A stretch of 64,000 bases of DNA from Lachnoclostridium sp. An181 (lineage in GTDB: Bacteria > Bacillota > Clostridia > Lachnospirales > Lachnospiraceae), in NCBI RefSeq assembly GCF_002160325.1, contig NZ_NFKJ01000011.1, forward strand, positions 1-64,000, written 5' to 3'. The position numbers and the translations under genes are program-made. Within the stretch, counting starts at the first letter, position 1; each line of letters begins with the position of its first letter. Of the stretch, positions 105 to 40,690 are shown one piece after another. Under the pieces are notes generated by a model. The model saw only the letters and a list, made by a program, of their open reading frames with translations. It had not been told where the DNA came from and ran no database searches.

Positions 105-3100
105 ATGAGAAAGAGGAAAAGAATGAAAAGATTTGCAGCAGTTTCCCTTGCAGCGGCAACTGTTTTGTCTATGAATGTGCCGGTCAGCTCTGCACAGGAA
201 GTAACTGCGCCAAAGCCATACGGGCCAACTCCAAGCGATGCTCAGATGAAATATTACAAAGATGAGCTTGCGATCTTCAACCATTTTGGCGTGAATACGT
301 ACACAGACAAAGAGTGGGGAGACGGAAAGGAAGACCCGGATATCTTCAATCCGGTGAATTTAGACACAGATCAATGGATAGAGGCGTTTAAAAATACGGG
401 ATTTAAACGCTGTCTGATCACGGCAAAGCACCACGATGGATTCAACCTGTACCCGACATCAGTGACAGATCATTCTGTGGAGAGCAGCTCTTGGAGGGAC
501 GGAAAAGGAGATGTGTTAAAAGAGTATTATGAGTCCTGTAAAAAATACGACATGGACATGGGCGTGTATCTCTCCCCTTGGGATCAGAACCTGCCAAGTT
601 ACTCCGTGGATGTTCCGCCGGATTACAATGATACGTATGTAAAACAGATTGAAGAGATTTTTGAAAACTACAGTGACCCGGAACATCCGATCGTAGAGTT
701 CTGGATGGACGGTGCGTGCGGAGATCCGGAGACAAGACCGGTCTATGATATCCAGCGCTGGTGGGACAAGCTGGAAGAACTGAATCCGGATATTGTGTAT
801 CAGCAGAATTATGGAGCACCGCTTCGCTGGGTAGGAAATGAATCCGGCTATGCGAGCAACACAAGCTGGCAGACAGCGGACGCAAAAAAACTGTGGGACG
901 ATTATTTTGTAAGAGGGATCGAGGACCAGAACTACCTGCATAATGGAGAGCCTTATATTGAGGGCAGCAGCACAGCGGACACACTTGTGTGGTCTATTCC
1001 AGAAGTGGATGTGCGCATCCGCGATGGATGGTTCTATCACGCAAATGAAAATCCAAAGACTCCGGAGGAACTGACAAAGATCTATTTTGACTCAGTGGGA
1101 AGGGGATCGCCGCTTCTGCTCAATGTAGCTCCGAACAGAGAAGGGCTCATTGATCAAAAGGACATTGATTCATTGGAAGGATTTCACGATATCCTTACCA
1201 ATACGTTTGATGTAAACTACGCAGAGGGCTCCGCAGCGGCAGCCACAAGTGTGCGGGGAAACCACAATGATTACAGTGCCGCAAAAGCAGTGGATGATGA
1301 CTATGACACTTACTGGACCATGGACGATGGGCAGACAACAGGCAGCATTACTGTAGAATTAGATAAACCTTCCTTGATCGACGTTGTGGAAATTCAGGAA
1401 TACATCCCTCTTGGACAGCGTATTTCTTCCTTTACAGTGGATGTAAGAGTGAACGGACGCTGGATGGAATACGGAGAGGGGGGAACCATTGGCTACAAAC
1501 GTCTGGTAAAAGGAACACCGATCAAGGCCGAGGCAGTGAGAGTCAACATCACAGGATCCTATGCAGTGCCATTGATCAATAATATCGCTGCATACAAAGC
1601 AGATGAGCGCATCGAAGAAGAAGGCGTACAAATTCCTGGAAGAATCCAGGCAGCCGAGTTTCAGGAGAAGTCAGGCGGTCTCATAGCAGAGAACAATGGG
1701 CCAAACGGTGCGTCCAACATCGGCGCGATCAAAGACGGTGACTGTGCTGTTTATAAAAATGTGCTGTTTACAAAGACACCTGAGAAATTCCTTTTAAACT
1801 GTGCAGGACCTGGAACTCCACAGATTACGCTGCGTCTGGACAGTGTGGACGGACCTGTGCTTGCGACTGTGGATGTAGAGCCTACAGGCGATTACTTTGC
1901 ATACCATACAATGGAAGCAGATGTTGTATATGAAGGAGATCTGACCGGATATCACGATATCTACCTGTGCCTGAATTCAGGATTGAATATTACCTGGTTT
2001 GAACTGACAGGAGCCAACAGTATGGGGTTTGCAGCAGATAAACTGACTGTGAATGAAGGAGAGAGTGTGGATGTGACTGTGACAAGGAGTGGAAAAGACC
2101 TTGACAACACAGCATCCGTAACTGTGACAACAGAACCGGACACGGCAGTACACGGCAGACATTTTGTACATAAGCAGGAAGTGGTGACATTTGCGCCTGG
2201 GGAAACAGAAAAAACAGTTACAATCGAGACAATCGACAATGAAGAGAAGAGCGGTACAGTATCCTTTAAAGCAGTATTGAGCAATCCGTCAGACAATGCG
2301 ACGATAGGTTCTGTGGATACGGTGACTATTTCCATTATGGACAATGATCTTGGCAGCGGCGTCAATGCACAGTGGAAGATGGACGAAGGAGAAGGGACTA
2401 CGATTACAGATACCGAAGGCCAGTATCAGGGTACATTAAGCGCTGGTGTTTCCTGGGCAGACGGAAGAGTTGGCGGCGGACTTTCCTTTGACGGGACAAG
2501 CGGCTATGTCAATCTTGGCATGGAAGATCTGGAAGGTCCATGGACAGTGGCTGTGTGGGTAAAACGTGCACAGGCATCCGGGGACAATGCAGTTCTTTTA
2601 AGCGGTACAGAAGGCGAGATCAAGCTGGAGCAGTATCAGAATACACAAAAAGTCGGAATCACAAAATTCGGAGTGGCTGACGAAGTATTTAATTACAGTA
2701 CGCCTGCCGGAACATGGACACATCTGGCATTGGTATGTGATGGGGAAAATTCGACTTCTCTGTATGCAAACGGAGAATTTGTGGGAACGATCGACATGGC
2801 TATCAAGTGTCCGGTGAGCAGGATCGGGGCCAATGACAAGGCTGGACTTGACAGTGCAGGTTATATGGCTGGAACTTTGGATGAACTGAAGATTTATGAC
2901 CATATGCTGAGCGCAGATCAGATCGCAGATATCGTAGAACATGAAGGCGGAAAACCGCTTGATAAAAATTTTGCAGAAGCACCTGAGTATGATGAAGAAA
3001 ACAATCAGCTGATCCTTCCAAAAGCAGAGGGATATGACATTGAAGTCTTTGGAAGCGACAATAAGGCAACAGTTTCCCTGGATGGAGAAGTTACAAGACC

Positions 3101-6100
3101 ATTGGAAACACAGACTGTGAAATTATTGTACAAGATTACAAATAAAGAAGACGGCTCCTCCTTTACAACAGAGAAAAATGCGGAAGTCACCATTCCTGCA
3201 AGAGAAAACAGTGTAGAGGGTGAGAATGAAAAACCAAATGTAATTCCGGAACTGCGCGAATGGGTTGGAGGGACTGGTGAAGTGGACCTTACAGATGCGC
3301 GTATTGTGCTGGGAGACGAGGAATTTAAAGCAGCAGCAGATACTCTGGAGGAAGATTACGAGGACATCACAGGAAGAAATATTGATGTGGTTTCCGGTGA
3401 CAAAGACAGTCTGCAGGCAGGCGATATTTTCCTTTCAAAAGCAGAAGGGGAAGATATGCTCGGCAGTGAAGGATACTATCTGAATATCGGCGGAGACAAT
3501 GCAGATGAAGATTATGTGGAGATCAAAGCTACCCACAACACAGGAAGTCTGTATGGAGGAATATCTATTCTGCAGATTTTAAAACAGGACGAAGACGGAC
3601 GGGATACACTTCCAAAAGGTCTTGTAAAAGATTATCCGGAATTTGAACAAAGAGGTATGCACCTTGACGTGGCGCGTAAATGGATCCCAATGGAATATCT
3701 TAAGGACCTGGCCAAACAGATGAGCTGGTACAAGCTGAATTTGTTTGCTATCCACCTGTCCGACAATGATATTTGGGAAGGATTGTCAACAGAAAACGGC
3801 AGCAACGGAGCAGCACAGGGATGGTTCAGACTGGAGAGCGAGACATTCCCGGAACTGACATCAAAGCAGCATTATACAAAAGAAGAGTTCAGAAACTTCC
3901 AGTATGAGAGTATGGATCTTGGAATCAATGTGATCCCGGAACTGGATACACCGGGTCATGCTCTTGCGTACACACAAGCATGGGGCGAGGACACAGCGCG
4001 TTACGATAATCCAAAATATCTGGATGTTTTGAATCCGCAGGTTCTGGAGAATACAAAGGCATTATTTGATGAATATATCAATGGTTACAATGGCGGTGAG
4101 CCGACTTTTGTGGGAGACTATGTCAACATCGGAACAGATGAATATAAGACAGACGGTCTGCCGTCAAATGAGCGGACACAGTACCGCGAGGGATTCCGTC
4201 AGTACTGCAATGATCTGCTTGAATATGTAAATTCAACAGGAAAAGAAGCAGTATTCTGGGGCTCCCTGACAGAGAACAGCGGAGAGACACCGGTTACAAC
4301 AGACGCTGTGATGTATGCGTGGTACCAGGGATATGCAAATGCAAAACAGTCTCTGGATGCAGGATACCGTGTGATTTCCATGGAAGATCAGGATATGTAT
4401 ATTGTTCCTGGCGGAAGCTCCTATCCAAATCAGTTTGGCCGTGCGGAACATCTGTACAACAACTGGCTGCCAAACAACAACTCAGGCTGGGCAGGCAATC
4501 CGGCTCCGGAAGGACATCCAAGAGTACTTGGCGGACAGTTCGCAGTGTGGAATGATTTCCACGGAAACGGTATTTCCGTCAATGATATCAGCTACCGTAT
4601 CCAGCACAATCTCTATGCAGTTGCAGAAAAGACATGGGCAGGAACCCAGGCAAATGAAGCAGGAAAAACCTATGAAGATGTCAAGAATCTGGCAGCAGAA
4701 CTTGGCGATGCTCCAAATGCAGATTTCATGTATGAAGTTGACAAAGAGGTTGTTGACAATGAACTTCTGAAACTGGACGGCAAAGCGGACAATGCAGCAC
4801 AGGCAGGAGCAGAAGTGACAGGAAATGAAAATGTCACAGAAAATGCAGCAGGCAAAAACGGAACAGCTATTCAGTTTAATGGCGGAGCAAGCTACATCAC
4901 TACAGATGTGAAATCTCCTGGATTTGACTGGACAGCAGCAATGTGGCTGAAACCGGAGGCAGACGGAGTTTTGATGGAAGGAAAGACAGGAACTCTTCGT
5001 CTGGAAGACGGCAAACTGAAATACGATGTAGAAGATTACACCCATACATTTGACTGTGATATCCAATACGGAGAGTGGACACATCTTGCACTTACCGGAA
5101 CATATGAAGGAGTCACTCTTTACATCAATGGCGAAAAATTCGCATCCCTGATCGGAACCCCGTTCCCGAACTGGAATGTGAACAGCGGATGTAACCTGGA
5201 TGACGGACGTGGATATCCGGTTAATGAAAAAGGTGAGCGTACTCAGCGGTATTACGAGACCTTGATGCTCCCTATGGAAGTGATCGGAAGTAAGGAAAAT
5301 GCAATGCAGGCATCTGTAGATGAGCTTTATATTTATGACAGAGTTTTAACTGAAAATGAGATCATCAAACTGTCAGGAGCAGAGATCCCATTCAATATTG
5401 CTTTGAACAAAGATGTCACAGTTGGAAATTATCACAGCGCAAGCACAGAGGCAGACCGCTCCGGCAGCAAAGCTGTAGACGGTGATCTGACAAGCCGCTG
5501 GGAATTTGACCTGAACAATACGGACACAAACTTTATCGAAATCCCGCTTAATGACAATGAGAGCGCCCAGAAAGTGATTATCAAACAGATGGTTTGGGGC
5601 GGACTGAACAGAATCACAGATATCCGCATCGTAGCGGTAAATGATGGTGTGGAAACAGATATCTTGCCGGAAACTGCATTTGACGGCGGAGAGATCGATG
5701 CAGCAAATCAGATCGCAACTGCAACATACGATCTCGGCCAGAGCGTAAAAGCAGATGCCATCAAGATTTATCTGACTCCTGCAGCAGCAGGTCCGGATGA
5801 CCTGGTAAATATCCGCGAATTGGAAGTTTACGGTATTGTATCCGATGAGCCTGCAGAAGAACTCTCTACAGCAGTTTTGGAATACGCACTGGAACTTGCG
5901 AAAAAGGCGGATACAACCGGTGTGGTGGAATCCGTTGTCAAGAAATTTGAGGAAGCCAGGACAAACACACAGGCAATCTTTGATGCAGCGAAAGCGGGAG
6001 ATGCATCTGTGACACAGGAAATGGTGGACAATGCATGGAGAGAATTGATCCATGTGATGCAGTATTTATCCTTCAAACAGGGAGACAAGACAGACCTTGA

Positions 6101-6725
6101 AAAGGTCATTGCCCTGGCAGCTGATATAGAAGGAAGACTTACATCCTATGTAGAAGAAGGACAGAAAGAATTTACAGATGCACTGACAGCTGCAAGAAAA
6201 GTTTATGACAGCAAAGACGCGATGCAGACGGAAGTGGATCAGGCCTGGAAAGACCTTCTTAGAGCAATGGCAAACCTTCGTCTGAAAGCAGATAAGGATG
6301 CGCTGGAAGAGCTTGTAAGTGGCGTGGAAGAAATGGACCTTAGCATGTATACAGAAGAAAGTGTACAGGTATTTAGAAGTGCTCTGGCTAATGCACAGCA
6401 AATACTGGCGGATGCAACTTTGTCTGAGGATGATCAGAGCACAGTGGATGCGGCAGAAGAAAAACTTGCATCTGCAAAAGCAGGTCTTGAGACAAAACAG
6501 GCGTCCGTTGGAACTGCAAGCAAGACAGATGACCAGAAAGGCAGCACAACAGGCAAAAATATAAACAATACAGAAGGAGGCAATCAGGATAAAGCAGCAA
6601 CATCAGTTGACAAGGCAACTGTAAAGAGTGCAAAGACAGGAGATGAAAGTGCGCTTTGGCTGATTGCAGCGGCAGGACTTGCAGCGCTTGCGGCAACATT
6701 GGCTGGGGCGAAGAAAAAAAGATAA
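105..6725 (+). CDS. Cell-wall-anchored GH29 alpha-L-fucosidase / GH20 lacto-N-biosidase or hexosaminidase fusion
   Basis: A 2206-residue secreted protein with two catalytic domains. Seen in order: signal peptide (1-30); GH29 (about 31-365) with the nucleophile-type motif EFWMDGA (D202); F5/8-type CBM32-like domain (370-495); CBM6-like domain (507-635); Calx-beta (640-755); LamG (750-945); GH20 N-terminal and catalytic domains (1045-1510) with the paired acidic residues D1345-E1346 in IGTDEY; second LamG (1580-1757); second F5/8 domain (1763-1914); helical FIVAR-like repeats (1920-2130); sorting signal SAKTGD (2175-2180), hydrophobic stretch and KKKR tail. GH29 of this type removes alpha-1,3/4-fucose, and GH20 removes beta-HexNAc or lacto-N-biose. 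From the locus I infer sequential attack on fucosylated type 1 glycans. The GH20 specificity cannot be read from sequence alone. GAGGAG lies 6 bases before the ATG. Confidence 0.93.
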   Translation: MRKRKRMKRFAAVSLAAATVLSMNVPVSSAQEVTAPKPYGPTPSDAQMKYYKDELAIFNHFGVNTYTDKEWGDGKEDPDIFNPVNLDTDQWIEAFKNTGFKRCLITAKHHDGFNLYPTSVTDHSVESSSWRDGKGDVLKEYYESCKKYDMDMGVYLSPWDQNLPSYSVDVPPDYNDTYVKQIEEIFENYSDPEHPIVEFWMDGACGDPETRPVYDIQRWWDKLEELNPDIVYQQNYGAPLRWVGNESGYASNTSWQTADAKKLWDDYFVRGIEDQNYLHNGEPYIEGSSTADTLVWSIPEVDVRIRDGWFYHANENPKTPEELTKIYFDSVGRGSPLLLNVAPNREGLIDQKDIDSLEGFHDILTNTFDVNYAEGSAAAATSVRGNHNDYSAAKAVDDDYDTYWTMDDGQTTGSITVELDKPSLIDVVEIQEYIPLGQRISSFTVDVRVNGRWMEYGEGGTIGYKRLVKGTPIKAEAVRVNITGSYAVPLINNIAAYKADERIEEEGVQIPGRIQAAEFQEKSGGLIAENNGPNGASNIGAIKDGDCAVYKNVLFTKTPEKFLLNCAGPGTPQITLRLDSVDGPVLATVDVEPTGDYFAYHTMEADVVYEGDLTGYHDIYLCLNSGLNITWFELTGANSMGFAADKLTVNEGESVDVTVTRSGKDLDNTASVTVTTEPDTAVHGRHFVHKQEVVTFAPGETEKTVTIETIDNEEKSGTVSFKAVLSNPSDNATIGSVDTVTISIMDNDLGSGVNAQWKMDEGEGTTITDTEGQYQGTLSAGVSWADGRVGGGLSFDGTSGYVNLGMEDLEGPWTVAVWVKRAQASGDNAVLLSGTEGEIKLEQYQNTQKVGITKFGVADEVFNYSTPAGTWTHLALVCDGENSTSLYANGEFVGTIDMAIKCPVSRIGANDKAGLDSAGYMAGTLDELKIYDHMLSADQIADIVEHEGGKPLDKNFAEAPEYDEENNQLILPKAEGYDIEVFGSDNKATVSLDGEVTRPLETQTVKLLYKITNKEDGSSFTTEKNAEVTIPARENSVEGENEKPNVIPELREWVGGTGEVDLTDARIVLGDEEFKAAADTLEEDYEDITGRNIDVVSGDKDSLQAGDIFLSKAEGEDMLGSEGYYLNIGGDNADEDYVEIKATHNTGSLYGGISILQILKQDEDGRDTLPKGLVKDYPEFEQRGMHLDVARKWIPMEYLKDLAKQMSWYKLNLFAIHLSDNDIWEGLSTENGSNGAAQGWFRLESETFPELTSKQHYTKEEFRNFQYESMDLGINVIPELDTPGHALAYTQAWGEDTARYDNPKYLDVLNPQVLENTKALFDEYINGYNGGEPTFVGDYVNIGTDEYKTDGLPSNERTQYREGFRQYCNDLLEYVNSTGKEAVFWGSLTENSGETPVTTDAVMYAWYQGYANAKQSLDAGYRVISMEDQDMYIVPGGSSYPNQFGRAEHLYNNWLPNNNSGWAGNPAPEGHPRVLGGQFAVWNDFHGNGISVNDISYRIQHNLYAVAEKTWAGTQANEAGKTYEDVKNLAAELGDAPNADFMYEVDKEVVDNELLKLDGKADNAAQAGAEVTGNENVTENAAGKNGTAIQFNGGASYITTDVKSPGFDWTAAMWLKPEADGVLMEGKTGTLRLEDGKLKYDVEDYTHTFDCDIQYGEWTHLALTGTYEGVTLYINGEKFASLIGTPFPNWNVNSGCNLDDGRGYPVNEKGERTQRYYETLMLPMEVIGSKENAMQASVDELYIYDRVLTENEIIKLSGAEIPFNIALNKDVTVGNYHSASTEADRSGSKAVDGDLTSRWEFDLNNTDTNFIEIPLNDNESAQKVIIKQMVWGGLNRITDIRIVAVNDGVETDILPETAFDGGEIDAANQIATATYDLGQSVKADAIKIYLTPAAAGPDDLVNIRELEVYGIVSDEPAEELSTAVLEYALELAKKADTTGVVESVVKKFEEARTNTQAIFDAAKAGDASVTQEMVDNAWRELIHVMQYLSFKQGDKTDLEKVIALAADIEGRLTSYVEEGQKEFTDALTAARKVYDSKDAMQTEVDQAWKDLLRAMANLRLKADKDALEELVSGVEEMDLSMYTEESVQVFRSALANAQQILADATLSEDDQSTVDAAEEKLASAKAGLETKQASVGTASKTDDQKGSTTGKNINNTEGGNQDKAATSVDKATVKSAKTGDESALWLIAAAGLAALAATLAGAKKKR

Positions 6726-12570: not shown

Positions 12571-12806
12571 AATTAAAGTCTCCTTAATGTTCGATAGATG
12601 ACTGCCCAAAGCAAAGGACAGCGGTATATTGTTTCTGAACCTTATAATAAGAGAAAAACAGGGGAAAAGCAAGGAGGAGGGAGGATGAGATAAGATAAGC
12701 GGATAAAACTGCAAAATGTCATCATAAAATGAGGATTCCGTTCGTATAATATTATACATATACCTGACAGGATACAAAGAAACGCAGGGATTTTTGTAAA
12801 TAATAT

Positions 12807-16010: not shown

Positions 16011-16805
16011 GTGGCAGAAGAAAAGAAATCATATCATCGGGGACGAAGAGACAAAAAGAAAAAAGGCGGCATTTTAAGCACTCTTGTGCTTATTGTGGCC
16101 CTGGCTGTATTCCTGGTATCCGGGTTTCAGCTGTTCCAGATCTTTTCTGAGTACAGGGCAGGAGAAAAGGAATACGAAAAGATACAGCAGCTGGCGATCA
16201 CGCAGGAAGATCCGGATGCGGAAGGCGGTTTTAAGGTAGACTTTGATGCGCTCAAGGAAATCAATCCGGACACCGTGGCGTGGATCCGGTTTGATGAGCC
16301 AAGCATTATCAACTACCCTGTTGTGCACGGCACGGACAATGAAACTTATCTGACAAAGACATTTGAGGCAAACGACAATAAACTGGGCACTTTGTTTGTG
16401 GACAAGGACAACACCGGGACATTCAAGGATAAAAATACGTTTATCTATGGCCATAACATGAAGAACAAGACCATGTTTGCCAAACTTATGGAATATAAAG
16501 AGAAATCATACTGGGAAAAATACCCGTATTTCTATATTTATACACCGGACGGCCAGGAACATGTATATAAGATATACTCCGCGGGAATCGTAAAAGACAC
16601 TTCGGACAGTTATATCAAGGCGTACAACACGGATGAGGAGTTTGAGCAGTACATAGCGCTTACAAAAGAGGCGTCTTTGTATGATACTGGTGTGGAAGTG
16701 ACAAAGGATTCCAAGATCGTAAGCCTTTCCACCTGCACGAATGTGAGGGATGATGAAAGATTCCTTGTACACGGAGTGGAAGTGGAGACAAAAGAAACAA
16801 AATAG
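16011..16805 (+). CDS. Class B sortase
   Basis: A 264-residue membrane-anchored transpeptidase that cleaves sorting motifs and joins proteins to the cell wall. Seen: a basic N-terminus, one transmembrane helix (about 21-43), then the sortase beta-barrel with H148 in YGHNMKN, C242 in LSTCTN and R250 in DDERFLVHG. The length and order fit class B as found in Clostridia, where it often serves as the main sortase. The start is GTG 16011 with GGAGGAGAAG just upstream inside the previous gene. Three giant surface enzymes in this window end in SAKTGD, so they are candidate substrates (inference). Confidence 0.92.
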   Translation: MAEEKKSYHRGRRDKKKKGGILSTLVLIVALAVFLVSGFQLFQIFSEYRAGEKEYEKIQQLAITQEDPDAEGGFKVDFDALKEINPDTVAWIRFDEPSIINYPVVHGTDNETYLTKTFEANDNKLGTLFVDKDNTGTFKDKNTFIYGHNMKNKTMFAKLMEYKEKSYWEKYPYFYIYTPDGQEHVYKIYSAGIVKDTSDSYIKAYNTDEEFEQYIALTKEASLYDTGVEVTKDSKIVSLSTCTNVRDDERFLVHGVEVETKETK

Positions 16806-19958: not shown

Positions 19959-22115
19959 ATGAGCACAAAAGGTAGAGTAACCATCCCTACAGACGTAGAC
20001 GTAGTACCAGAGACACTTGAGCTGGTAGAACGTTGGGGAGCAGATGCAATCCGCGACTGCGACGGAACAGATTATCCGGAAGAATTAAGAAATGTGGATG
20101 CAAAAGTGTATTCCACATATTACACAACTAGAAAAGACAACGAATGGGCAAAGGCGAATCTGGACGAAGTGCAGCAGATGTACATCATGACGCCTTTTTA
20201 TACGGCGACATCCGATAAACTTAGCATTCATCTGATGAATCATCTGTATCCGGATATGCTGAAGGTGAATTCCCGCGATGATATCACCAGATGGTGGGAA
20301 GTGATCGATCGTACGACGGGAGAGGTTGTGCCGGTAGAGCAGTGGAGTTATGATGATGAAAGCGGAGACGTGACGATCACAGACGCAAAAGAATTCCACG
20401 ACTACACTGTAAGTTTTCTTGCCTATATTATGTGGGATCCGGTACATATGTACAATGCAGTGACAAACGACTGGAAAGATGTTGAAAAACAGATCACATT
20501 TGACGTGCGCCAGCCAAAGACAAGAGCGTATTCCATGGAACGTCTCAGAAAATACATCAAAGAACACCCATATATTGATGTTATCCGATATACAACATTC
20601 TTCCATCAGTTCACTCTCATTTTTGATGAACTGGCAAGGGAAAAGTATGTGGACTGGTATGGATATTCTGCATCTGTAAGCCCATATATCCTGGAGCGGT
20701 TTGAAAAAGAAGTCGGTTATAAATTCCGCCCTGAATTTATCATTGACCAGGGCTATATGAACAATACATACAGAATCCCGTCCAAAGAGTTTAAGGATTT
20801 CCAGGCATTCCAGAGAAGGGAAGTCACAAAACTTGCTAAAGAAATGGTAGATATCACACATGAATGTGGAAAAGAGGCAATGATGTTCCTTGGAGACCAC
20901 TGGATCGGAATGGAGCCTTTCATGGATGAATTCAAATCAGTAGGTCTTGACGCTGTTGTGGGAAGTGTAGGAAACGGTTCGACACTTCGTCTTATCAGCG
21001 ATATCGAGGGAGTGAAATATACAGAGGGAAGATTCCTTCCATACTTCTTCCCGGATACATTCCATGAGGGAGGAGACCCTGTAAAAGAAGCAAAAGTAAA
21101 CTGGGTGACAGCAAGACGTGCGATCCTGCGCAAGCCAATCGACCGTATCGGATACGGCGGATATCTGAAACTGGCAATGCAGTTCCCGGAATTCATTGAT
21201 TATGTGGAAAGTGTGTGCCAGGAGTTCCGTACTCTTTATGACAACATCAAAGGAACAACTCCGTACTGCATCAAAAAAGTAGCAGTATTAAACTGCTGGG
21301 GCAAGATGCGTGCATGGGGCAACCATATGGTGCACCACGCAATTTACTTCAAACAAAATTACTCTTACGCGGGAATCATTGAGGCTCTCAGCGGTGCTCC
21401 GTTTGATGTGAAATTTATCAGTTTTGATGATATCAGAAACAATCCGGAAATTCTGGATGACATCGATGTTATTTTAAATGTCGGAGATGCGGATACTGCA
21501 TATACAGGCGGAGATAACTGGACAGATGAAAAAATCGTCTCAGCGATCAAGAAATTCATCTACAATGGCGGTGGATTCATCGGTGTCGGCGAGCCTGCAG
21601 CACACCAGTATCAGGGTCATTTCTTCCAGCTTGCAACTGTAATGGGAGTTGAGAAGGAAACCGGATTTACATTAAATGTGGACAAGTACAATTGGGATGA
21701 GCATGAGCATTTCATCACAGAGGACTGCACAAAAGAGATTGATTTTGGCGAGGGCAAGAAAAACATCTATGCTCTTGACGGGACAACGATCATCAAGCAG
21801 ATTGATAAAGAAGTACAGCTTGCTGTCAATGAATTTGGTAAAGGACGCTGTGTATATATCAGCGGTCTTCCGTACAGCTTTGAGAACAGCCGTCTTCTGT
21901 ACCGTTCTATCATCTGGTCTTCTCACGATGAGGATGAACTTTATAAATGGTTTAGTACAAACTTCAACGTGGAAGTACACGCATATGTGAAGAACGGCAA
22001 ATACTGTGTTGTAAATAATACATATGAGCCGCAGAAATCTACGATCTACAAAGGGGATGGAACAAGTTTTGATGTCTCCCTTGATGCAAACGAAATCATA
22101 TGGTACGAAATTTAA
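19959..22115 (+). CDS. GH112 1,3-beta-galactosyl-N-acetylhexosamine phosphorylase
   Basis: A 718-residue cytosolic phosphorylase that splits lacto-N-biose or galacto-N-biose with phosphate into galactose-1-phosphate plus GlcNAc or GalNAc. Seen: the GH112 opening with AIRDCDGTDYPEEL, a TIM-barrel-like core, and GDHWIGMEPF, in which D313 has the same number as the proton donor of the Bifidobacterium longum enzyme (recalled, not searched). The C-terminal part contains a Rossmann-like glutaminase-type fold (VLNVGDADTAY, GGGFIGVGEP). A galactosyl-rhamnose phosphorylase is the alternative in this family, but nearby NahK, GalE and lacto-N-biosidase-type genes favour lacto-N-biose. GGAGG precedes the ATG. 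Confidence 0.92.
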   Translation: MSTKGRVTIPTDVDVVPETLELVERWGADAIRDCDGTDYPEELRNVDAKVYSTYYTTRKDNEWAKANLDEVQQMYIMTPFYTATSDKLSIHLMNHLYPDMLKVNSRDDITRWWEVIDRTTGEVVPVEQWSYDDESGDVTITDAKEFHDYTVSFLAYIMWDPVHMYNAVTNDWKDVEKQITFDVRQPKTRAYSMERLRKYIKEHPYIDVIRYTTFFHQFTLIFDELAREKYVDWYGYSASVSPYILERFEKEVGYKFRPEFIIDQGYMNNTYRIPSKEFKDFQAFQRREVTKLAKEMVDITHECGKEAMMFLGDHWIGMEPFMDEFKSVGLDAVVGSVGNGSTLRLISDIEGVKYTEGRFLPYFFPDTFHEGGDPVKEAKVNWVTARRAILRKPIDRIGYGGYLKLAMQFPEFIDYVESVCQEFRTLYDNIKGTTPYCIKKVAVLNCWGKMRAWGNHMVHHAIYFKQNYSYAGIIEALSGAPFDVKFISFDDIRNNPEILDDIDVILNVGDADTAYTGGDNWTDEKIVSAIKKFIYNGGGFIGVGEPAAHQYQGHFFQLATVMGVEKETGFTLNVDKYNWDEHEHFITEDCTKEIDFGEGKKNIYALDGTTIIKQIDKEVQLAVNEFGKGRCVYISGLPYSFENSRLLYRSIIWSSHDEDELYKWFSTNFNVEVHAYVKNGKYCVVNNTYEPQKSTIYKGDGTSFDVSLDANEIIWYEI

Positions 22116-23041: not shown

Positions 23042-23349
23042 TAAAACCACTCCTATTCCGACATCTGAATGTCATAAAACAGTTATTGTATGTAATGACA
23101 ACTCCTGAATAAGAAATGAATTCTTTTTTATTCAGCATGCCATTTTGAAAAAAATGTCAAATTATATAATATGAATAAAAAACCAAAATAACAATAGCAG
23201 ATTCTGAAAAAAATGACAACGATTTTTGAAAAAAATAGCGATTTTATATAAAAATAGCAAGATATATAAAACTAAAGCCAATATCCGTATAGAAAAGCCG
23301 GGACAAGTAGGATATGATGTATATAATAAAAAGACAGGAGGAACCTATT
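23042..23349. promoter_or_regulatory. Divergent control region of the AraC regulator and sugar ABC operon
   Basis: A very AT-rich intergenic stretch of 308 bases. It holds spaced direct repeats of the form TTYTGAAAAAAATG (23143-23160, 23202-23220, and a partial copy at 23223-23240), which are plausible AraC-family operators. It also has a TATAAT-like box at 23164-23169. No gene is seen. Confidence 0.5.
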
Positions 23350-24738
23350 ATGAAGATGAAAATGGTGAAAAAACTTGTTGCATTATCTCTCGTATCTGCT
23401 ATGGCAGTGTCAGGTTTGGCAGCCTGCGGAAGCAGCAAAGATGATGACAGCAAGTCAGAAGGCGACGGAAAAGTATTAAAAGTTGCTGCTTTTGAAGGTG
23501 GTAATGGTACACAGATCTGGGAGGACATTAAAGAAGCTTTCGAAAAAGAAAATGAAGGCGTAACAGTAGAACTTGAAATGTCTTCTGAATTGGATCAGGA
23601 TCTGACAAAAGAAATCCAGAATGGAGATGTTCCGGATGTTGTATATTACAACCTGGGACAGGAGAGCGGTTTCACAGAAACAATGCTGAAAGAAGGCGCG
23701 ATCGCTGATATTTCAGATGTATTTGATGATGAGCTCAAGGGCAGACTCCTTGACGGAATTCTTGACGGAACAGATGCTCAGCCATATGGAGATGGAAAAA
23801 TCTATCTGGCACCTATCTTCTACACACCTACAGGATTCTGGTACAACAAGAACCTGTTTGAAGGACCAAATGCAAAATACACACTTCCAACAACTTGGGA
23901 AGAGTTCTTTGCTTTAGGAGATCAGGCTAAAAAAGATGGAGTTTCCTTGTTTACTTTCCCACAGGCTGGATACTTTGATGCAACAATGTACACAATGTTA
24001 GCTCAGTCCGGCGGAATGGATTTCTATAAGAAAGCATTACAGTATGATGCAGACACATGGACATCCGCTGAAGGAAAGAAAGTTCTCGATACGATCGGAA
24101 AATTAGTATCTAAAGATTATACACAGGCTGATACAGTTGCAAACGCAAACGCTGACGGTGGTTTCAAGATCAACCAGCAGAACGTTATCGACGGAAAAGC
24201 ATTGTTTATGCCAAACGGAAACTGGGTAATCTCTGAGATGGCAGCATCCACACCATCTGATTATGAATGGGGCATGATGCCGGCACCAAAATGGGACGGA
24301 GACACACAGCAGTCTGTTTACATGTTCACAGAGCAGATGTGGGTACCAGCAGATGCGCCAAACATGGATCTTGCAAAAGAATTTGTCAAATTCATGTACT
24401 CTGATACAGTTGTAGACATCCTTCTTGCAAACGAGACAACAAACAAAGAAACAGGAGAGACATCTCCTTCACCAGTTGTAGCGCCTGTTAAGGGAGCAGC
24501 TGAAAAATTGCCGGAAGGTGTATCTCAGACAACAAAAGACTGCTATGCAATCACAAATCAGGAAGGCGTAGTGAGTGTTACAGGTAAATGGGCTACTACA
24601 GAGCCGATCGAAGGTCTGAACATGAATGATGCGGTATACAAACCAATCGAATCCATCAACACAGGAGATATGACTGTAGATGATTGGCAGAAACAGCTTG
24701 TTGAGACATGGCAAAAATGTGCAGAAGCAGCAAAATAA
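23350..24738 (+). CDS. ABC sugar transporter, substrate-binding lipoprotein
   Basis: A 462-residue extracytoplasmic sugar-binding protein of the MalE/UgpB-like family 1. Seen: a lipoprotein signal peptide with lipobox GLAAC, then the alpha/beta two-lobe fold with typical stretches AFEKENEGVTVELE, PTGFWYNKNLF and LPTTWEEFFALGDQAKKDG. I start at ATG 23350, placed 7 bases after AGGAGG, rather than the in-frame ATG at 23314. It is the first gene of an importer operon with two permeases. No ATPase is encoded in the window, so a shared MsmX-type ATPase elsewhere is expected. Context suggests lacto-N-biose/galacto-N-biose or a fucosylated relative as ligand. Confidence 0.93.
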   Translation: MKMKMVKKLVALSLVSAMAVSGLAACGSSKDDDSKSEGDGKVLKVAAFEGGNGTQIWEDIKEAFEKENEGVTVELEMSSELDQDLTKEIQNGDVPDVVYYNLGQESGFTETMLKEGAIADISDVFDDELKGRLLDGILDGTDAQPYGDGKIYLAPIFYTPTGFWYNKNLFEGPNAKYTLPTTWEEFFALGDQAKKDGVSLFTFPQAGYFDATMYTMLAQSGGMDFYKKALQYDADTWTSAEGKKVLDTIGKLVSKDYTQADTVANANADGGFKINQQNVIDGKALFMPNGNWVISEMAASTPSDYEWGMMPAPKWDGDTQQSVYMFTEQMWVPADAPNMDLAKEFVKFMYSDTVVDILLANETTNKETGETSPSPVVAPVKGAAEKLPEGVSQTTKDCYAITNQEGVVSVTGKWATTEPIEGLNMNDAVYKPIESINTGDMTVDDWQKQLVETWQKCAEAAK

Positions 24739-24766
24739 GAGAATCAGTTATAAATCAACTGAAAAG

Positions 24767-24797
24767 AAACGGTGAGTTATAACAGCTCACCGTTTTT
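24767..24797 (+). terminator. Intercistronic hairpin between binding protein and permease genes
   Basis: AAACGGTGAGTT pairs with AGCTCACCGTTT around a short loop, followed by TTTTT. It sits between the binding-protein and permease genes, so it probably gives partial termination and a high binding-protein to permease ratio. Confidence 0.8.
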
Positions 24798-24820
24798 AAG
24801 AGGAAAAAAGGAGGAAAAAC

Positions 24821-25711
24821 ATGAATAGAGGTAAATCACAGCGGAGATTCGTGTTTGCGTGTCTGGCTCCTGCGGTTATTTTGGTTGTGCTGTTCATATT
24901 CGTTCCGACAATTAACGTTTTCAGAATGTCCCTGTACCGCATGGGAGGGATTACGAATAAGAAAAGTTTCGTAGGATTCAGTAACTTTATAAAATTGATG
25001 GATGATAAAAACTTCCTGGAAGCAATGCAGAACTCTATTGCGATCATTGTTTTGGTAACACTTTGTACGATTGTCATTGCAGTTCTTTTTGCAGCGCTTC
25101 TTTCCCGCGGAAAATTCAAAGGGAAAAATTTCTTCCGTATTATCTTTTACATACCAAACATCTTAAGTATTGTAGTTATCGCGGGTATTTTCGGAGCAAT
25201 TTATAATCCAAGCACAGGTCTTTTAAATACATTTTTAGAGGCTATCCATCTTGACGGATTAAAACACCAGTGGATGGGAGATCCGAAGATTGTATTATAT
25301 TCCGTAATTTTTGCACTGGTTTGGCAGGCGATCGGATACTATATGGTTATGTACATGGCCAGTATGGCAGCGATCCCGGAGGATCTTTACGAAGCTGCCT
25401 CTCTGGATGGTGCAACAGAAATCCAGATTTTCTTTAAGGTTACACTTCCGTTGATTTGGAGTAACATCCGTACAACACTTACATTCTATATTATCAGTAC
25501 CATTAACTTAAGTTTCCTGTTCGTCCAGATCATGACAAACGGTGGACCAAACGGAAAGACAGAAGTATTCCTGAACTATATGTACAAACAGGCATATGGA
25601 GCTGGGGTATACGGCTATGGTATGGCAATCGGCGTAGTAGTATTCATCTTCTCGTTCGTACTTGCGGCAATTGTAAACAAGATCACAGATCGAGAAGTAT
25701 TAGAATTCTAG
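24821..25711 (+). CDS. ABC sugar transporter permease (MalF/UgpA type)
   Basis: A 296-residue inner-membrane permease with about six transmembrane helices. Seen: the opening FVFACLAPAVILVVLFIFVPTI and the EAA-type loop YEAASLDGATEIQIFFKVTLPLI, which docks the ATPase. It is the partner of the permease 10 bases downstream. AAGGAGG precedes the ATG. Confidence 0.95.
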   Translation: MNRGKSQRRFVFACLAPAVILVVLFIFVPTINVFRMSLYRMGGITNKKSFVGFSNFIKLMDDKNFLEAMQNSIAIIVLVTLCTIVIAVLFAALLSRGKFKGKNFFRIIFYIPNILSIVVIAGIFGAIYNPSTGLLNTFLEAIHLDGLKHQWMGDPKIVLYSVIFALVWQAIGYYMVMYMASMAAIPEDLYEAASLDGATEIQIFFKVTLPLIWSNIRTTLTFYIISTINLSFLFVQIMTNGGPNGKTEVFLNYMYKQAYGAGVYGYGMAIGVVVFIFSFVLAAIVNKITDREVLEF

Positions 25712-25721
25712 AAAGGAGAGC

Positions 25722-26603
25722 ATGGAGAATATGAATAAAAAGCATAAACCTTCAAGTATTATTTATAAAGTATTTATCTATGTAGCTCTCATTGCTTTGG
25801 CAATTTCTATCATCGTACCGGTTGCATGGGTATTTATGGCGAGTGTTAAAACAAACTCTGAGTTTATCGGAGCGGGTACAAACCCGTGGGCACTCCCAAA
25901 AGAGTTCCACTATCAGAACTTTATCACCGCTTTTAGAGATGCACAGATGGGAGAGTTTTTCCTGAACTCTGTTATCGTTACGGCAGTGGCATTGATTCTT
26001 CTTCTGATCATTGCTCTTCCGGCATCCTATGCGATTTCAAGATTTGATTTTAAAGGGAGAAAATTTTTAAATGCTATGTTTATGGCAGGTCTGTTCATCA
26101 ACATCAACTACATTGTAGTTCCGATTTTCCTGATGCTGAGCGGTGCCAACAAAGCATTGCATGTTGAATTTTTCCTGGATAACCGTTTCATACTGTCGCT
26201 GATTTATGCATCGAGTGCGCTTCCGTTTACCATTTACCTGTTGAGCGGATATTTCAAGACTCTTCCAAAGGGATTTGAGGAAGCAGCGTATATTGATGGA
26301 TGCGGACACTTTAAGACCATGACAAAAATCATGATCCCTATGGCAAAACCAAGTATCCTGACTGTAATCATGTTCCAGTTCCTTGCATTTTGGAATGAGT
26401 ACATCATCGCGTATACATTGATGGATGACCACGGAACGCTGGCGATGGGACTTAAAAATCTGATGGCTGTTGAGAGAACGGCGACAAACTACGGTATCAT
26501 GTACGCAGGTCTTGTAATCGTTATGATTCCTGTACTGGTTCTTTATATCTGTGTACAGAAACAGTTGACACAAGGTATGACTCTTGGTGGATTGAAAGGT
26601 TAA
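25722..26603 (+). CDS. ABC sugar transporter permease (MalG/UgpE type)
   Basis: A 293-residue membrane permease. Seen: IVPVAWVFMASVKTN near the N-terminus, a core of six helices, and the EAA loop EEAAYIDGCGHFKTMTKIMIPMAKP. It forms the second half of the channel with the preceding gene. AAAGGAG lies 4-5 bases before ATG 25722; ATG 25731 is a possible alternative. Confidence 0.95.
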   Translation: MENMNKKHKPSSIIYKVFIYVALIALAISIIVPVAWVFMASVKTNSEFIGAGTNPWALPKEFHYQNFITAFRDAQMGEFFLNSVIVTAVALILLLIIALPASYAISRFDFKGRKFLNAMFMAGLFININYIVVPIFLMLSGANKALHVEFFLDNRFILSLIYASSALPFTIYLLSGYFKTLPKGFEEAAYIDGCGHFKTMTKIMIPMAKPSILTVIMFQFLAFWNEYIIAYTLMDDHGTLAMGLKNLMAVERTATNYGIMYAGLVIVMIPVLVLYICVQKQLTQGMTLGGLKG

Positions 26604-27985: not shown

Positions 27986-28747
27986 ATGAACATAAAAAAA
28001 AGATTAAAAAGTAAGAAGGTATTAATTTTACTCATATTAATAATTCTTGGTTTAGTTTTGGCCTCTTCTGTATTGGTTATTTTGTATAGTAGAGATAGTG
28101 ATATACAATTGAAAATCAACGGGGAAAGTGTGTCAAAAGAAGAATACGTTCAGACAATGAAAGAAAAGCAATATGATGTCACAGTGTATTTTAAGCAAAA
28201 CTATGATGCGCAGGTGGATAAAAAGTTTTGGGAAACATCGTTTGACGGTGAAGTTCCATATAAAAAGCTGGCAGATGAAACTTTGGAAGAATTGAAATAT
28301 CGCCATGCAATATTCGACATTGCAGAAGAAAAAGGATACATCGATGACGCGGATTTTGTTTCTTTGAAACGACAGATGGAGGAAGAGAATCAGGAAAGAG
28401 AAGAAAAAAAAGAAAGAGGCGAGCCTGTTTACGGCCTTTCTGAATATACGATGGACTTGTATCTGGAATATGAAATAAGCAGTATAAAAGAGCAGTACTG
28501 CAATGATGAGGGAAATGAGGATATGGAAATATCCACCGAAGAATTGCAGGATTATTACAACAGCAGGGAATGGCTTGTGGGCGAGGATGGAAAAAAGGCA
28601 GAGTTTGAAGAAATCAGGTCTGTGTTAGAAAAGGATATCAGAGAAATGCGGTATGAGGAAATGGTGAAAAAAGCAGCCGGTGATTCTTCGGTGGATGTGA
28701 AAAAGGACTCACTTTATACATTCACTTTAAAGAATATAAAAAAATAA
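27986..28747 (+). CDS. GH136 partner / chaperone subunit (LnbY-like membrane protein)
   Basis: A 253-residue protein with an N-terminal membrane anchor (about 13-32) and a charged, helical external part resembling the SurA/PrsA N-terminal region (KINGESVSKEEYVQTMKEKQY). GH136 lacto-N-biosidases are known to need a dedicated partner (LnbY in Bifidobacterium longum, the GH136 I subunit in Eubacterium/Roseburia). This gene lies only 18 bases before the GH136 gene and shows the expected size and type, so I call it that partner. Sequence similarity to LnbY itself could not be tested. No prolyl isomerase domain is obvious. Confidence 0.72.
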   Translation: MNIKKRLKSKKVLILLILIILGLVLASSVLVILYSRDSDIQLKINGESVSKEEYVQTMKEKQYDVTVYFKQNYDAQVDKKFWETSFDGEVPYKKLADETLEELKYRHAIFDIAEEKGYIDDADFVSLKRQMEEENQEREEKKERGEPVYGLSEYTMDLYLEYEISSIKEQYCNDEGNEDMEISTEELQDYYNSREWLVGEDGKKAEFEEIRSVLEKDIREMRYEEMVKKAAGDSSVDVKKDSLYTFTLKNIKK

Positions 28748-28765
28748 AGAATAGGAGGACAATCT

Positions 28766-31700
28766 ATGAAAAGGAAAATTTTGGCGGGCTTGTTGGCCTT
28801 GGCACTGACGTGCACGTCAGCAATGCAGTTCCTTCCGGGAGACGTACGTGCCGAGGATCAAAAAGATGATGTTGGAACAACATATTATGTGAGTTCTCGC
28901 AATGGGGACGACTTGAACAAGGGGACGTCTGAAGATGAGGCATTTGCAACCCTGGACAAGATCAATGAGATCACATTGCAGCCTGGGGATGAAGTGCTTT
29001 TGGAAAGAGGTTCTGTATTTGAAGATCAATATCTTCACGTAAAAGGCAGTGGGGATGCAAAAGACCCAATCATTATCTCCGCCTATGGAGAGGGAGATAT
29101 GCCGCAGATCAATGCAAACGGAAAAGGTGTTTGGTATCAGGATTTTGGGAAACCTTTGGACAATGCAAATCACAAGTACAAAGGAAATGTTTCCACAGCC
29201 CTTCTTCTTAACGATGTAGAATACATTGAGATCAGCGACCTGGAGATCACCAATGACAGGGACAAAGGAATCGATGACGCGGACAAAGGCTTAGCTTACA
29301 ATGACCAGAATGTTATGGACAGAACAGGCGTGGCGTCCTGTACAAGTAATATCGGAACCGCGGATCACATTGTACTGGATAACTTGTATATCCACGATGT
29401 AGATGGAAATGTCTACAATAAGCATATGCTCAACGGCGGTATTTATTTTATCACTGCTCTGCCTAAGAATGAGGAAGAGACGGGAATTTCAAGATACAAT
29501 GATATTCAAATCAAAAACTGCCGCGTCGACACAGTCAATCGATGGGGAATCGCGCTGTCTTATACAGCATATTGGGATAAATTTAAGACAAAAGCAATCT
29601 CTGATGAAATCTGCCAGAAATACGGAGCTACAAATGTACTGGTAGAAAATAACTATATCAAAGATGCAGGGGGAGACTCCATCACAACTATGTACTGCTA
29701 CAGACCAATGGTACAGAATAATGTATCCGAAGGTGCGGCAAGACAGATCAACACGACAGATTATTCGCAGACATCATTCGGACGAGTTGCTGCCGCGATC
29801 TGGCCGTGGAAATGTAAAGATGCAGTGTTCCAGTACAATGAATGTTTCAACACACTGAATGCTGCAAGCGGAAACGGAGACGGACAGGCATGGGATGCAG
29901 ACTGGGGCGATGGAACGTTGTACCAGTACAATTACAGCCATGGAAACACAGGTGGAGCGGTGATGTTCTGCGGAGAGCAGGCGTACAGAAACACATTCCG
30001 CTACAATATCAGTCAGGAAGACTTACTTGGTGTGCTCAACCTTCCAAGCCAGCCGGATGCTCATGTGTACAACAACACATTTTATATGAAGGAGAATGTA
30101 AACTTTATCCGTCAGTCAGGTATGGCAAGCAATGGAAAGACAACGCTGGAAAACAACATCATTTATTACAGCGGTGAGACTCCTAGGACAGAGAACTGGA
30201 ATCCGGGCGGACGCAGTACATACGACAATAACCTTTACTACAATTATGCAAATGTACCTTCTTCCGACAAAAATGCTATCCAGGCTGCAAAAGGGACTCA
30301 GGTGATGGCTGATCCGGGAACAGCTCCGACAAGTACGGAAGGAAAGGCGCAATCCCACAATAATCCGGATGAGAAAACCGTGTTTGACGGATACAAACTT
30401 GTAGAGGATTCTTTGGCAGTGAATGCAGGAAAGATCATCAAAGATGAGAGCGGTAAAGCAGTGGAAAAAGATTTCTTTGGAAAGAACATAGGGGCAATCC
30501 CGGAAATCGGGGCTGCCGAGAGTGATGCTGTGACATTGGCAATCCGCTCAGATGTGTATGACATTGCGGATGGAGAGATCAGCGGCCTGGTAAAAGGAAC
30601 GACCGTAGAGCAATTCCTTGCAAATCTCATTTATGATGACGGTGTGACGATTGTTGTGAAAAATGCGTCAGGAGATACTTTGCACGCAGATGATGTTGTA
30701 AAGGGCGGAATGAGTGTGGAACTGACCTTTGAAAATGACAGTGCAACCTACAGTATCGCAGCAAACAAAGACAATAAACTAAAATCAAGTATCTTTATGG
30801 TAGAGGGAAGTACGATCTACGTTCCTTCCACACAAAAGAATCCGATGTCAGTGGAAGAAGTAAAAGCAGGCGTTACTGTGCATGAAACAGCGACTGTATC
30901 TGTGAGAAACAATGATACTGAAGTGACAGAAGGAAATGCGACAGAGGGAATGACACTTAGGATCACCGCAGAGAACGGCGATATGAATGACTTCAATATT
31001 TCGGTTAAAAACGATTATCAGTGGGCCCTGGATTACGCAGGAAATGTGCAGGGAAATGTATGGTTTGCACAGATGCGTACATCTGATACTGATTATAAAA
31101 ATCTGACAGATTATGATCCTCAGTACCCGAACTGGGTAGTAGACCAGTGGTATGGACCTGGAGTGGACCTTCCGAACCATACAACACCTACTGATGAGAA
31201 TACTCATGGGCTTTTGTCAGACACAACCGGCCCAACCGTTTCAGAAGGAATGGCAATGACATTCCGTGCGCCAAAAGATGGCTATGTCTCTTTTAATGTA
31301 AAAGATGATGAGCCGTATTTGAGACAGAGTGGGAATGCCGGAGGTTCCGTAGAGCTGAAACTGACGGTAAACGGAGAGACGATACAAAGCTGCGTACTTG
31401 AGGAGAGCAAAGTACAGGGGGACTTCCCTGCTGTTGAAAAACTGAAAGTGGAAAAAGGCGACTTTATCCGTGTGGAGGCAAAGAACAACGGAAAACCAAC
31501 CAAACCATCTATCCATGTGACACCTGAAATTCAGTATCTCAATGAGTCAATCGAAGAAGAGACTGAGACATTAAGACCAGCCGTTCTTGCTTATCTTGTA
31601 GAACTGGCAAAAGAGCAGAAAGAAAACGGAGCGTTAGAAGGTGTTGTGGAGAGTGTAGTTGAGATATTTGAAACAAGACTTGAATATGCGGAATCTCTTC

Positions 31701-32413
31701 TTGCAAAAGTAGAACAGGGAGAAACAGGTGTAACACAAAGTGACCTTGACAAAGCAACAGAAGAACTTCTGGAGGCAATGCACTATCTTTCCTTCAAAGC
31801 GGATAAGACAGATCTTTTGACAGTGATAGGGATGGCTGAGGATCTGACTGCAAATAAAGAGGAGTACATTGCATCTACATATGAGCCTTTTGAAAAAGCA
31901 CTTAAGAGCGCAAAGGCGGTTGCAGAGGATAAGAGCGCCCTTCAGGATGAGATTGATGAAAGCTGGCATCAGCTGCTTACGGCAATGGCAAATTTAAGAT
32001 TCCAGCCGGATAAGTCTAAATTGGAAGAACTTCTGGCGGCTGTCAAGGATATTGACACAAGGCTCTATACAAAGGAAACCGTGCAGACATTCGCGAAAGC
32101 CTATGCATATGCAGAGGATATATATGAGAAAGAAGACGCAGATACAGAGGAAGTAACGGCGGCATATGACGGATTAAAAGAAGCTTATGCAGCTTTGAAA
32201 AAGACAGACAAAAGAGCTGCTGTGGAGAAAGTGCAGGCAAATGCGGGCAGTGGTAATAGTGCAGGCACAGCATCAAAAACCAATACGGCTACTGGGACAA
32301 AAAAAGTAAAAGCATCTGCAAAGACAGGAGATACAGGTGTCTGGTTCCCTGTAGGAGTTATGTTTACAGCTGCTTTGACCGGTGCAGCCATGGTGTTGAA
32401 AAAAAGAAAATAA
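28766..32413 (+). CDS. Cell-wall-anchored GH136-type lacto-N-biosidase
   Basis: A 1215-residue secreted protein with a signal peptide (1-29). Its catalytic region is a right-handed beta-helix (about 35-585) that opens YYVSSRNGDD and is rich in rungs such as NNYIKDAGGDSI. The motif DGQAWDADWGDG holds D372 and D379, seven residues apart, the same spacing as the catalytic pair of B. longum LnbX (Asp411/Asp418, recalled). Two small beta-domains (about 590-735), a carbohydrate-binding-like domain (745-925) and FIVAR-like helical repeats (930-1150) follow, then SAKTGD (1184-1189), a hydrophobic stretch and a basic tail. It should release lacto-N-biose from type 1 chains outside the cell. It is co-transcribed with the partner gene just upstream. 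Confidence 0.85.
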   Translation: MKRKILAGLLALALTCTSAMQFLPGDVRAEDQKDDVGTTYYVSSRNGDDLNKGTSEDEAFATLDKINEITLQPGDEVLLERGSVFEDQYLHVKGSGDAKDPIIISAYGEGDMPQINANGKGVWYQDFGKPLDNANHKYKGNVSTALLLNDVEYIEISDLEITNDRDKGIDDADKGLAYNDQNVMDRTGVASCTSNIGTADHIVLDNLYIHDVDGNVYNKHMLNGGIYFITALPKNEEETGISRYNDIQIKNCRVDTVNRWGIALSYTAYWDKFKTKAISDEICQKYGATNVLVENNYIKDAGGDSITTMYCYRPMVQNNVSEGAARQINTTDYSQTSFGRVAAAIWPWKCKDAVFQYNECFNTLNAASGNGDGQAWDADWGDGTLYQYNYSHGNTGGAVMFCGEQAYRNTFRYNISQEDLLGVLNLPSQPDAHVYNNTFYMKENVNFIRQSGMASNGKTTLENNIIYYSGETPRTENWNPGGRSTYDNNLYYNYANVPSSDKNAIQAAKGTQVMADPGTAPTSTEGKAQSHNNPDEKTVFDGYKLVEDSLAVNAGKIIKDESGKAVEKDFFGKNIGAIPEIGAAESDAVTLAIRSDVYDIADGEISGLVKGTTVEQFLANLIYDDGVTIVVKNASGDTLHADDVVKGGMSVELTFENDSATYSIAANKDNKLKSSIFMVEGSTIYVPSTQKNPMSVEEVKAGVTVHETATVSVRNNDTEVTEGNATEGMTLRITAENGDMNDFNISVKNDYQWALDYAGNVQGNVWFAQMRTSDTDYKNLTDYDPQYPNWVVDQWYGPGVDLPNHTTPTDENTHGLLSDTTGPTVSEGMAMTFRAPKDGYVSFNVKDDEPYLRQSGNAGGSVELKLTVNGETIQSCVLEESKVQGDFPAVEKLKVEKGDFIRVEAKNNGKPTKPSIHVTPEIQYLNESIEEETETLRPAVLAYLVELAKEQKENGALEGVVESVVEIFETRLEYAESLLAKVEQGETGVTQSDLDKATEELLEAMHYLSFKADKTDLLTVIGMAEDLTANKEEYIASTYEPFEKALKSAKAVAEDKSALQDEIDESWHQLLTAMANLRFQPDKSKLEELLAAVKDIDTRLYTKETVQTFAKAYAYAEDIYEKEDADTEEVTAAYDGLKEAYAALKKTDKRAAVEKVQANAGSGNSAGTASKTNTATGTKKVKASAKTGDTGVWFPVGVMFTAALTGAAMVLKKRK

Positions 32414-39525: not shown

Positions 39526-39535
39526 AAAAGGTACT

Positions 39536-40636: not shown

Positions 40637-40690
40637 TATGTATAGACAGATGTAAAACCTTAAGGGTTCAAAAATAAGGAGGAGTTTGAT

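Follow-up and report, generated by a model that had tools for sequence, protein, structure and literature searches.

Two known proteins show that a single polypeptide can hold two catalytic domains that cooperate on a glycan. In EndoE of Enterococcus faecalis, which joins glycoside hydrolase (GH) families GH18 and GH20, the covalent linkage speeds the second glycan's release about tenfold (PMC8894350), and SiaBb3 of Bifidobacterium bifidum combines GH33 with GH123. Among enzymes with one catalytic domain, the fucosidase SpGH29 of Streptococcus pneumoniae uses D171 as nucleophile and E215 as acid/base, and contacts galactose through W211 and D257 (PMC10154630). Akkermansia Am2136 is an exo-beta-N-acetylglucosaminidase that acts on mucin, on N-acetylglucosamine (GlcNAc)-beta1-3Gal and on beta-1,6 and beta-1,2 linkages. 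GH20 hexosaminidases conserve an arginine (Arg162 in SpHex, Arg178 in HexA) that is Gln190 in the lacto-N-biosidase LnbB, an enzyme with a short loop 2 and a lectin domain that completes its active site (PMC4449183). Here, we analyze a window of 64,000 nucleotides from Lachnoclostridium sp. An181 (contig NZ_NFKJ01000011.1, positions 1 to 64,000, forward strand), in which a single gene near the contig end encodes both a GH29 and a GH20 catalytic domain. Judging from its sequence, we consider the product likely to be an anchored exo-glycosidase with two activities, for which we predict the removal of fucose and GlcNAc from fucosylated mucin and milk chains.

The open reading frame (ORF) begins with ATG, encodes 2206 residues and has zero internal stops. 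Domains were called with Pfam profiles, each match exceeding its gathering cut-off. From the N-terminus, the protein contains a signal peptide, GH29, CBM32, CBM6, Calx-beta, LamG, GH20b-GH20, a second LamG, a CBM32-like domain, FIVAR and a sorting signal. A preliminary description of this DNA had proposed that GH29 and GH20 enzymes are fused in one protein, and both families are found above cut-off in the single ORF, with neither catalytic domain falling outside its family (for GH29, Alpha_L_fucos covers residues 77-360 at 5.7e-28, scoring 98.8 bits where the cut-off is 25.2). The CBM32-like, CBM6-like, Calx-beta and LamG modules that it described between them are placed there by Pfam (the F5_F8_type_C match spans residues 379-484), and its catalytic positions agree with ours: D202 is the aspartate of WMDGACG, and D1345-E1346 is the acidic pair of IGTDEYK. 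The GH20 domain lies about 1000 residues C-terminal of the GH29 domain, and the chain carries two catalytic domains with intact catalytic residues in both.

The closest solved structure to the GH29 half is SpGH29 (3.4e-125), with 199 of 444 aligned residues identical (44.8%), rising to 48% in the first part. The SpGH29 residues D171, E215, W211 and D257 align with D202, E246, W242 and D302, so that the nucleophile, the acid/base and the contacts to the Lewis galactose are all kept. The features of subfamily B are present, a glutamate acid/base within a GNE motif (E246) and a galactose subsite (W242, D302). The GH29 half is predicted to be an SpGH29-type, subfamily-B alpha-1,3/4-fucosidase of the Lewis type, an assignment that the identity to SpGH29 and the conserved contacts support.

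What the GH20 half releases distinguishes two models of the protein. As first described, it would be a lacto-N-biosidase, and one protein would defucosylate Lewis a/b structures and then free Gal-GlcNAc. Such enzymes do belong to GH20 and provide the next-best solved relatives (8hvb, 1.1e-26; 4h04, 4.7e-26), the locus is devoted to lacto-N-biose, and a LamG domain follows GH20 here, comparable to the lectin-like domain in LnbB. However, the lacto-N-biosidase structures score at most 97 bits, whereas Am2136, the closest solved structure, scores 231 bits (1.9e-67), which favours an exo-enzyme, and the locus already contains a GH136 biosidase. D1345 and E1346 align with D412 and E413 of Am2136, giving the catalytic Asp-Glu pair. 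The subsite -1 arginine is kept as R1191 in an LDVAR motif, where the aligned residue is glutamine in 4h04 and 9fyn and tyrosine in 8hvb. Along the 4h04 chain, an offset of 19 puts the aligned glutamine at Q190 and the acidic pair at D320/E321, which we take to be the LnbB catalytic pair. Loop 2 is long, like that of Am2136 and unlike that of LnbB, and neither LnbB-type feature, a replaced arginine or a short loop 2, is found in the GH20 half. Because R1191 is kept, loop 2 is long and Am2136 is the closest match, the GH20 half is predicted to remove terminal GlcNAc and not a disaccharide; lacto-N-biose release by this domain is improbable. Fucose caps had been said to block lacto-N-biosidases and hexosaminidases; the second term suits the GH20 half and the first does not. 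Another GH20 protein (L064, contig C7) has LnbB as its closest solved match (1.6e-38), yet retains the DxxR arginine.

GH20 enzymes differ in their preference for GlcNAc, N-acetylgalactosamine (GalNAc) and 6-sulfo-GlcNAc. The GH20 half could target another terminal N-acetylhexosamine (HexNAc), either the beta-GalNAc of LacdiNAc or Sda-like structures or 6-sulfo-GlcNAc, and the GH29 and GH20 steps would then be consecutive, for example on fucosylated LacdiNAc. The variable preference of the family, pocket residues unlike those of Am2136 and a sulfatase within the window are consistent with such a target. However, the residues point specifically to neither GalNAc nor sulfo-GlcNAc, and Am2136 favours GlcNAc about 100-fold, which leaves this target unlikely. 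The sulfatase is on the opposite strand, near a radical SAM/SPASM protein resembling an anaerobic sulfatase maturase (window 8730-9848 and 11074-12777).

The sequence itself shows the single ORF with its domains and catalytic residues, the anchor signal and the surroundings of the gene. Under the exo-glycosidase reading, for which we infer the substrate specificities, the order of the steps and any benefit of tethering, the N-terminal GH29 domain would remove alpha-1,3/4 fucose at Lewis-type, galactose-capped termini. The GH20 domain would remove terminal beta-linked GlcNAc after the loss of galactose, and the CBM32, CBM6 and LamG modules would keep the protein on the glycan. A galactosidase would be needed between the two steps because galactose still caps GlcNAc after Lewis defucosylation. 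The protein would supply two of the three exo-steps (removal of fucose, galactose and GlcNAc) for fucosylated N-acetyllactosamine or type-1 chains, and the galactosidase step could fall to GH2 proteins borne separately on the surface. GH2 matches above cut-off number 15 in the genome, many of them within giant surface proteins. The order may also be reversed, with the GH20 domain starting on internal Lewis x that ends in GlcNAc and making a galactose-ended Lewis unit available to the GH29 domain. An alternative route, the release of lacto-N-biose, would run through the neighbouring GH136 enzyme.

Several observations weigh against this reading. On a Lewis terminus, one reaction does not directly follow the other, and consequently direct substrate channelling is doubtful. 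The fusion is seen in one genome only, and conservation therefore gives no basis for inferring selection for coupling. In the active site, the Am2136 pocket residue Y415 is K1348 here, at a position that also varies in other family members.

The pairing of GH29 with GH20 is apparently rare, as the preliminary description had supposed. No second GH29-GH20 chain was found at E <= 1e-100 in about 1,100 distinct genomes, sampled from the family, the order, the phylum and relatives, where the top two candidates per genome were scored and a weaker fusion could be missed. Its host genome encodes 9 GH20 and 2 GH29 proteins, of which no other combines the two domains. Pfam found one catalytic domain each in the genome's other large surface proteins that were scanned, a set made up of GH20 and GH84 proteins and the largest ORFs. 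Within a limited set of Bacteroidota loci, GH29 proteins were on short ORFs of about 510-690 amino acids where the ORF was read. The open-access literature yielded no GH29-GH20 fusion, an absence that is not proof; GH20 goes unmentioned in a survey of GH29 and in a review of fucosidases, as does GH29 in a survey of GH20 domains. The two families, their activities and bifunctional glycosidases as a principle are already known, and the GH29-GH20 pairing was absent from the genomes and literature searched. Candidates for a second fusion were rejected: L010 stops after CBM6/Calx-beta modules, without GH20, and the N-terminal half of L048 is GH136-like, not GH29.

Comparison with relatives locates the join. 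Relatives at L060/L073, L061/L074 and L046/L075 align with the fusion only as far as residue ~748-750, and the join lies at about residue 750, after Calx-beta and before LamG. The GH29-CBM32-Calx-beta unit occurs in relatives with other C-termini (L073-L076), and the GH20b-GH20-LamG unit occurs in relatives with CBM32 N-termini. The gene's place at a contig end and the abundance of LamG copies in the genome might suggest an assembly chimera, in which two genes were joined at a repeated LamG module. However, nothing else in the genome exceeds 69% identity to the junction (window 2000-3300) except for one 42-bp stretch at 90%, and without a near-identical copy elsewhere read confusion is hardly possible there. 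The base composition is even along the gene save for one short stretch at 41% GC (guanine plus cytosine), and a single signal peptide and a single anchor serve the entire chain. We rejected an assembly artefact on the strength of the junction DNA and consider its probability negligible.

Uncoupled domain shuffling is a serious rival, to which we assign a substantial probability that stays below an even chance. The two halves would then be independent enzymes with a common signal peptide and anchor and zero kinetic gain, an arrangement that is compatible with the same two activities. Each half is found as a separate modular enzyme in relatives, with interchangeable C-termini; LamG, CBM and FIVAR modules are used throughout the genome; the predicted steps are non-adjacent; and the confinement of the fusion to one genome fits equally. 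In contrast, the remaining large surface enzymes that were scanned each have a single catalytic domain, so that fusion is not the default here, and a different genus has independently joined the same GH20 clade to a GH136-like domain, hinting at a preference for partners that act on type-1 chains.

That second fusion (L048:4243-11829, genome G178), from a genus of the same family, is a protein of 2529 residues in which a divergent GH136-like beta-helix is combined with CBM32 and GH20. Its GH20 domain is the closest to ours, with 51% identity and a sister position in the tree at a support of 1.0. Residues ~187-744 match GH136 lacto-N-biosidases (7v6m, 6e-28; 6kqs, 8e-26), although conservation is only partial around the catalytic aspartates known from GH136. 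One GH20 clade has been joined to two different kinds of enzyme from a single glycan pathway, and the two cases are suggestive of shared substrates. We tentatively propose, as a possibility that we rate as doubtful, that gut Lachnospiraceae-like bacteria use the clade as a plug-in exo-GlcNAcase, fused to varied type-1/Lewis enzymes, here GH29 of subfamily B and in G178 a GH136-like domain. Tethering would then allow one anchored molecule to trim fucosylated chains step by step, with an EndoE-like kinetic synergy.

The preliminary description called the protein wall-anchored. A sorting-type signal is present, but it is not a canonical LPXTG; instead, the C-terminus has SAKTGD followed by a hydrophobic stretch and KKR. 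With the signal peptide (called by inspection), this motif variant, the hydrophobic stretch and the positive tail, the protein has the features of a sortase substrate, and the genome encodes 4 sortases, 1 of them inside the window. The stalk region (residues ~1905-2206) matches across dozens of surface proteins in the same genome. A degenerate KSAKTGD signal and a FIVAR stalk terminate almost all of the giant surface enzymes read here (e.g. the C-termini of L092-L111).

The window also holds a complete-looking lacto-N-biose pathway, with genes for a phosphorylase, an importer, a biosidase pair, a kinase, a uridylyltransferase-like protein and an epimerase (Table 1). The nucleotidyltransferase, kinase and epimerase genes presumably correspond to an lnp-type pathway. 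Here, the LnbY-like chaperone gene is directly upstream of the LnbX-type GH136 gene, and to judge from these matches lacto-N-biose release is most likely the job of this LnbX/LnbY pair (27986-32413). The second GH29 protein is closest to Ruminococcus gnavus E1_10125, which accepts sialyl-Lewis x (PMC7872956), and the genome's two GH29 enzymes may divide plain from sialylated Lewis caps. The giant surface proteins scanned, which share the sorting signal, include 4 GH101, 2 GH84 and 1 GH95; four different GH101 endo-alpha-N-acetylgalactosaminidases (L094, L096, L097 and L105) is the count for a genome of 2.77 Mb. Its gene content suggests that the organism specialises in mucin and milk glycans.

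Table 1. Features of the fusion gene and of its surroundings, in window coordinates
Feature	Position	Strand	Evidence
Whole gene, predicted bifunctional wall-anchored glycosidase, 2206 aa	105..6725	+	One unbroken ORF
Signal peptide (MRKRKRMKRFAAVSLAAATVLSMNVPVSSA)	105..194	+	Inspection of sequence
GH29 catalytic domain, predicted subfamily-B type; D202, E246, W242, D302	210..1214	+	PF01120; SpGH29 3.4e-125
CBM32-like (F5/8 type C), beta-sandwich after GH29 as in SpGH29	1215..1619	+	Pfam; SpGH29 alignment
CBM6	1647..2009	+	PF03422, 1.2e-15; residues 515-635
Calx-beta	2016..2348	+	PF03160; residues 638-748; end of GH29 unit common to relatives
LamG domain 1, opening module of GH20 half	2490..2927	+	PF13385 (Laminin_G_3), 5.5e-29; residues 796-941
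GH20b	3231..3635	+	PF02838, 3.1e-18, 67.2 bits; residues 1043-1177
GH20 catalytic domain; D1345-E1346, substrate arginine R1191	3642..4643	+	PF00728, 2.4e-35, 122.9 bits; residues 1180-1513
LamG domain 2 (limits approximate)	4842..5384	+	Second Laminin_G_3 stretch; relatives align to ~1765
CBM32-like domain 2 (limits approximate)	5412..5819	+	Second F5_F8_type_C stretch
FIVAR-type helical stalk (limits approximate)	5841..6500	+	PF07554, residues 2063-2128 and a second stretch
SAKTGD sorting signal, hydrophobic stretch and KKR tail	6627..6722	+	Residue inspection
Sortase (context)	16011..16805	+	PF04203
Lacto-N-biose phosphorylase	19959..22115	+	PF09508/PF17385/PF17386
ABC (ATP-binding cassette) sugar importer: binding protein and two permeases	23314..26603	+	
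LnbY-like lacto-N-biosidase chaperone	27986..28747	+	NF047894 2.8e-51, under curated cut-off
GH136 LnbX-type lacto-N-biosidase	28766..32413	+	NF047897 1.9e-242, under full-length cut-off; 7v6m 1.5e-217, 5gqc 7e-163
Second GH29 with CBM32 and Calx-beta	32630..37420	+	Closest R. gnavus E1_10125 (6tr3, 1e-215)
Nucleotidyltransferase, APH-type sugar kinase, NAD-dependent epimerase	38602..41707	+	

The breakdown of gut mucin requires many exo-enzymes acting in sequence. A natural fusion of an alpha-1,3/4-fucosidase with an exo-GlcNAcase would be a ready-made test of whether tethering non-adjacent steps pays on a dense glycoprotein, and it could serve as a practical tool for trimming Lewis antigens. 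An uncharacterised GH20 clade gains a functional hint through guilt by fusion, its partner being GH29 in one genus and a GH136-like domain in the other.

Taken singly, each half of the fusion belongs to a known and ordinary enzyme type, whose fold the nearest solved structures settle. SpGH29 (strain TIGR4; PDB 6ORG/6OR4/6ORF) shares 45% identity across the catalytic and beta-sandwich domains, but its solved chain has 452 residues and one beta-sandwich domain, and GH20, LamG and the anchor are not in it. Am2136 (PDB 6JQF/7EZT) shares the same acidic pair and the DxxR arginine, with an alignment that extends over ~75 preceding residues, but it has one catalytic domain only and a tyrosine, Y415, in place of K1348. 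LnbB (PDB 4H04) has the same GH20b-GH20 order followed by a lectin-like domain, is membrane-anchored and acts on milk glycans; it differs in Gln190 for R1191, in its short loop 2 and in its disaccharide product. The L048 protein shares a GH20 half that is 51% identical, but its partner is the divergent GH136-like beta-helix and not GH29. Among the bifunctional precedents, EndoE likewise ties a GH20 exo-GlcNAcase covalently to a second glycosidase, a linkage that raises its rate, but its partner is a GH18 endoglycosidase and its substrate is an N-glycan (PMC8894350). SiaBb3 also combines, in one chain that acts on mucin glycans, an enzyme for a capping sugar with a HexNAc enzyme, but it does so with other families, and on the Sda antigen one of its steps depends directly on the other (PMC12856340).

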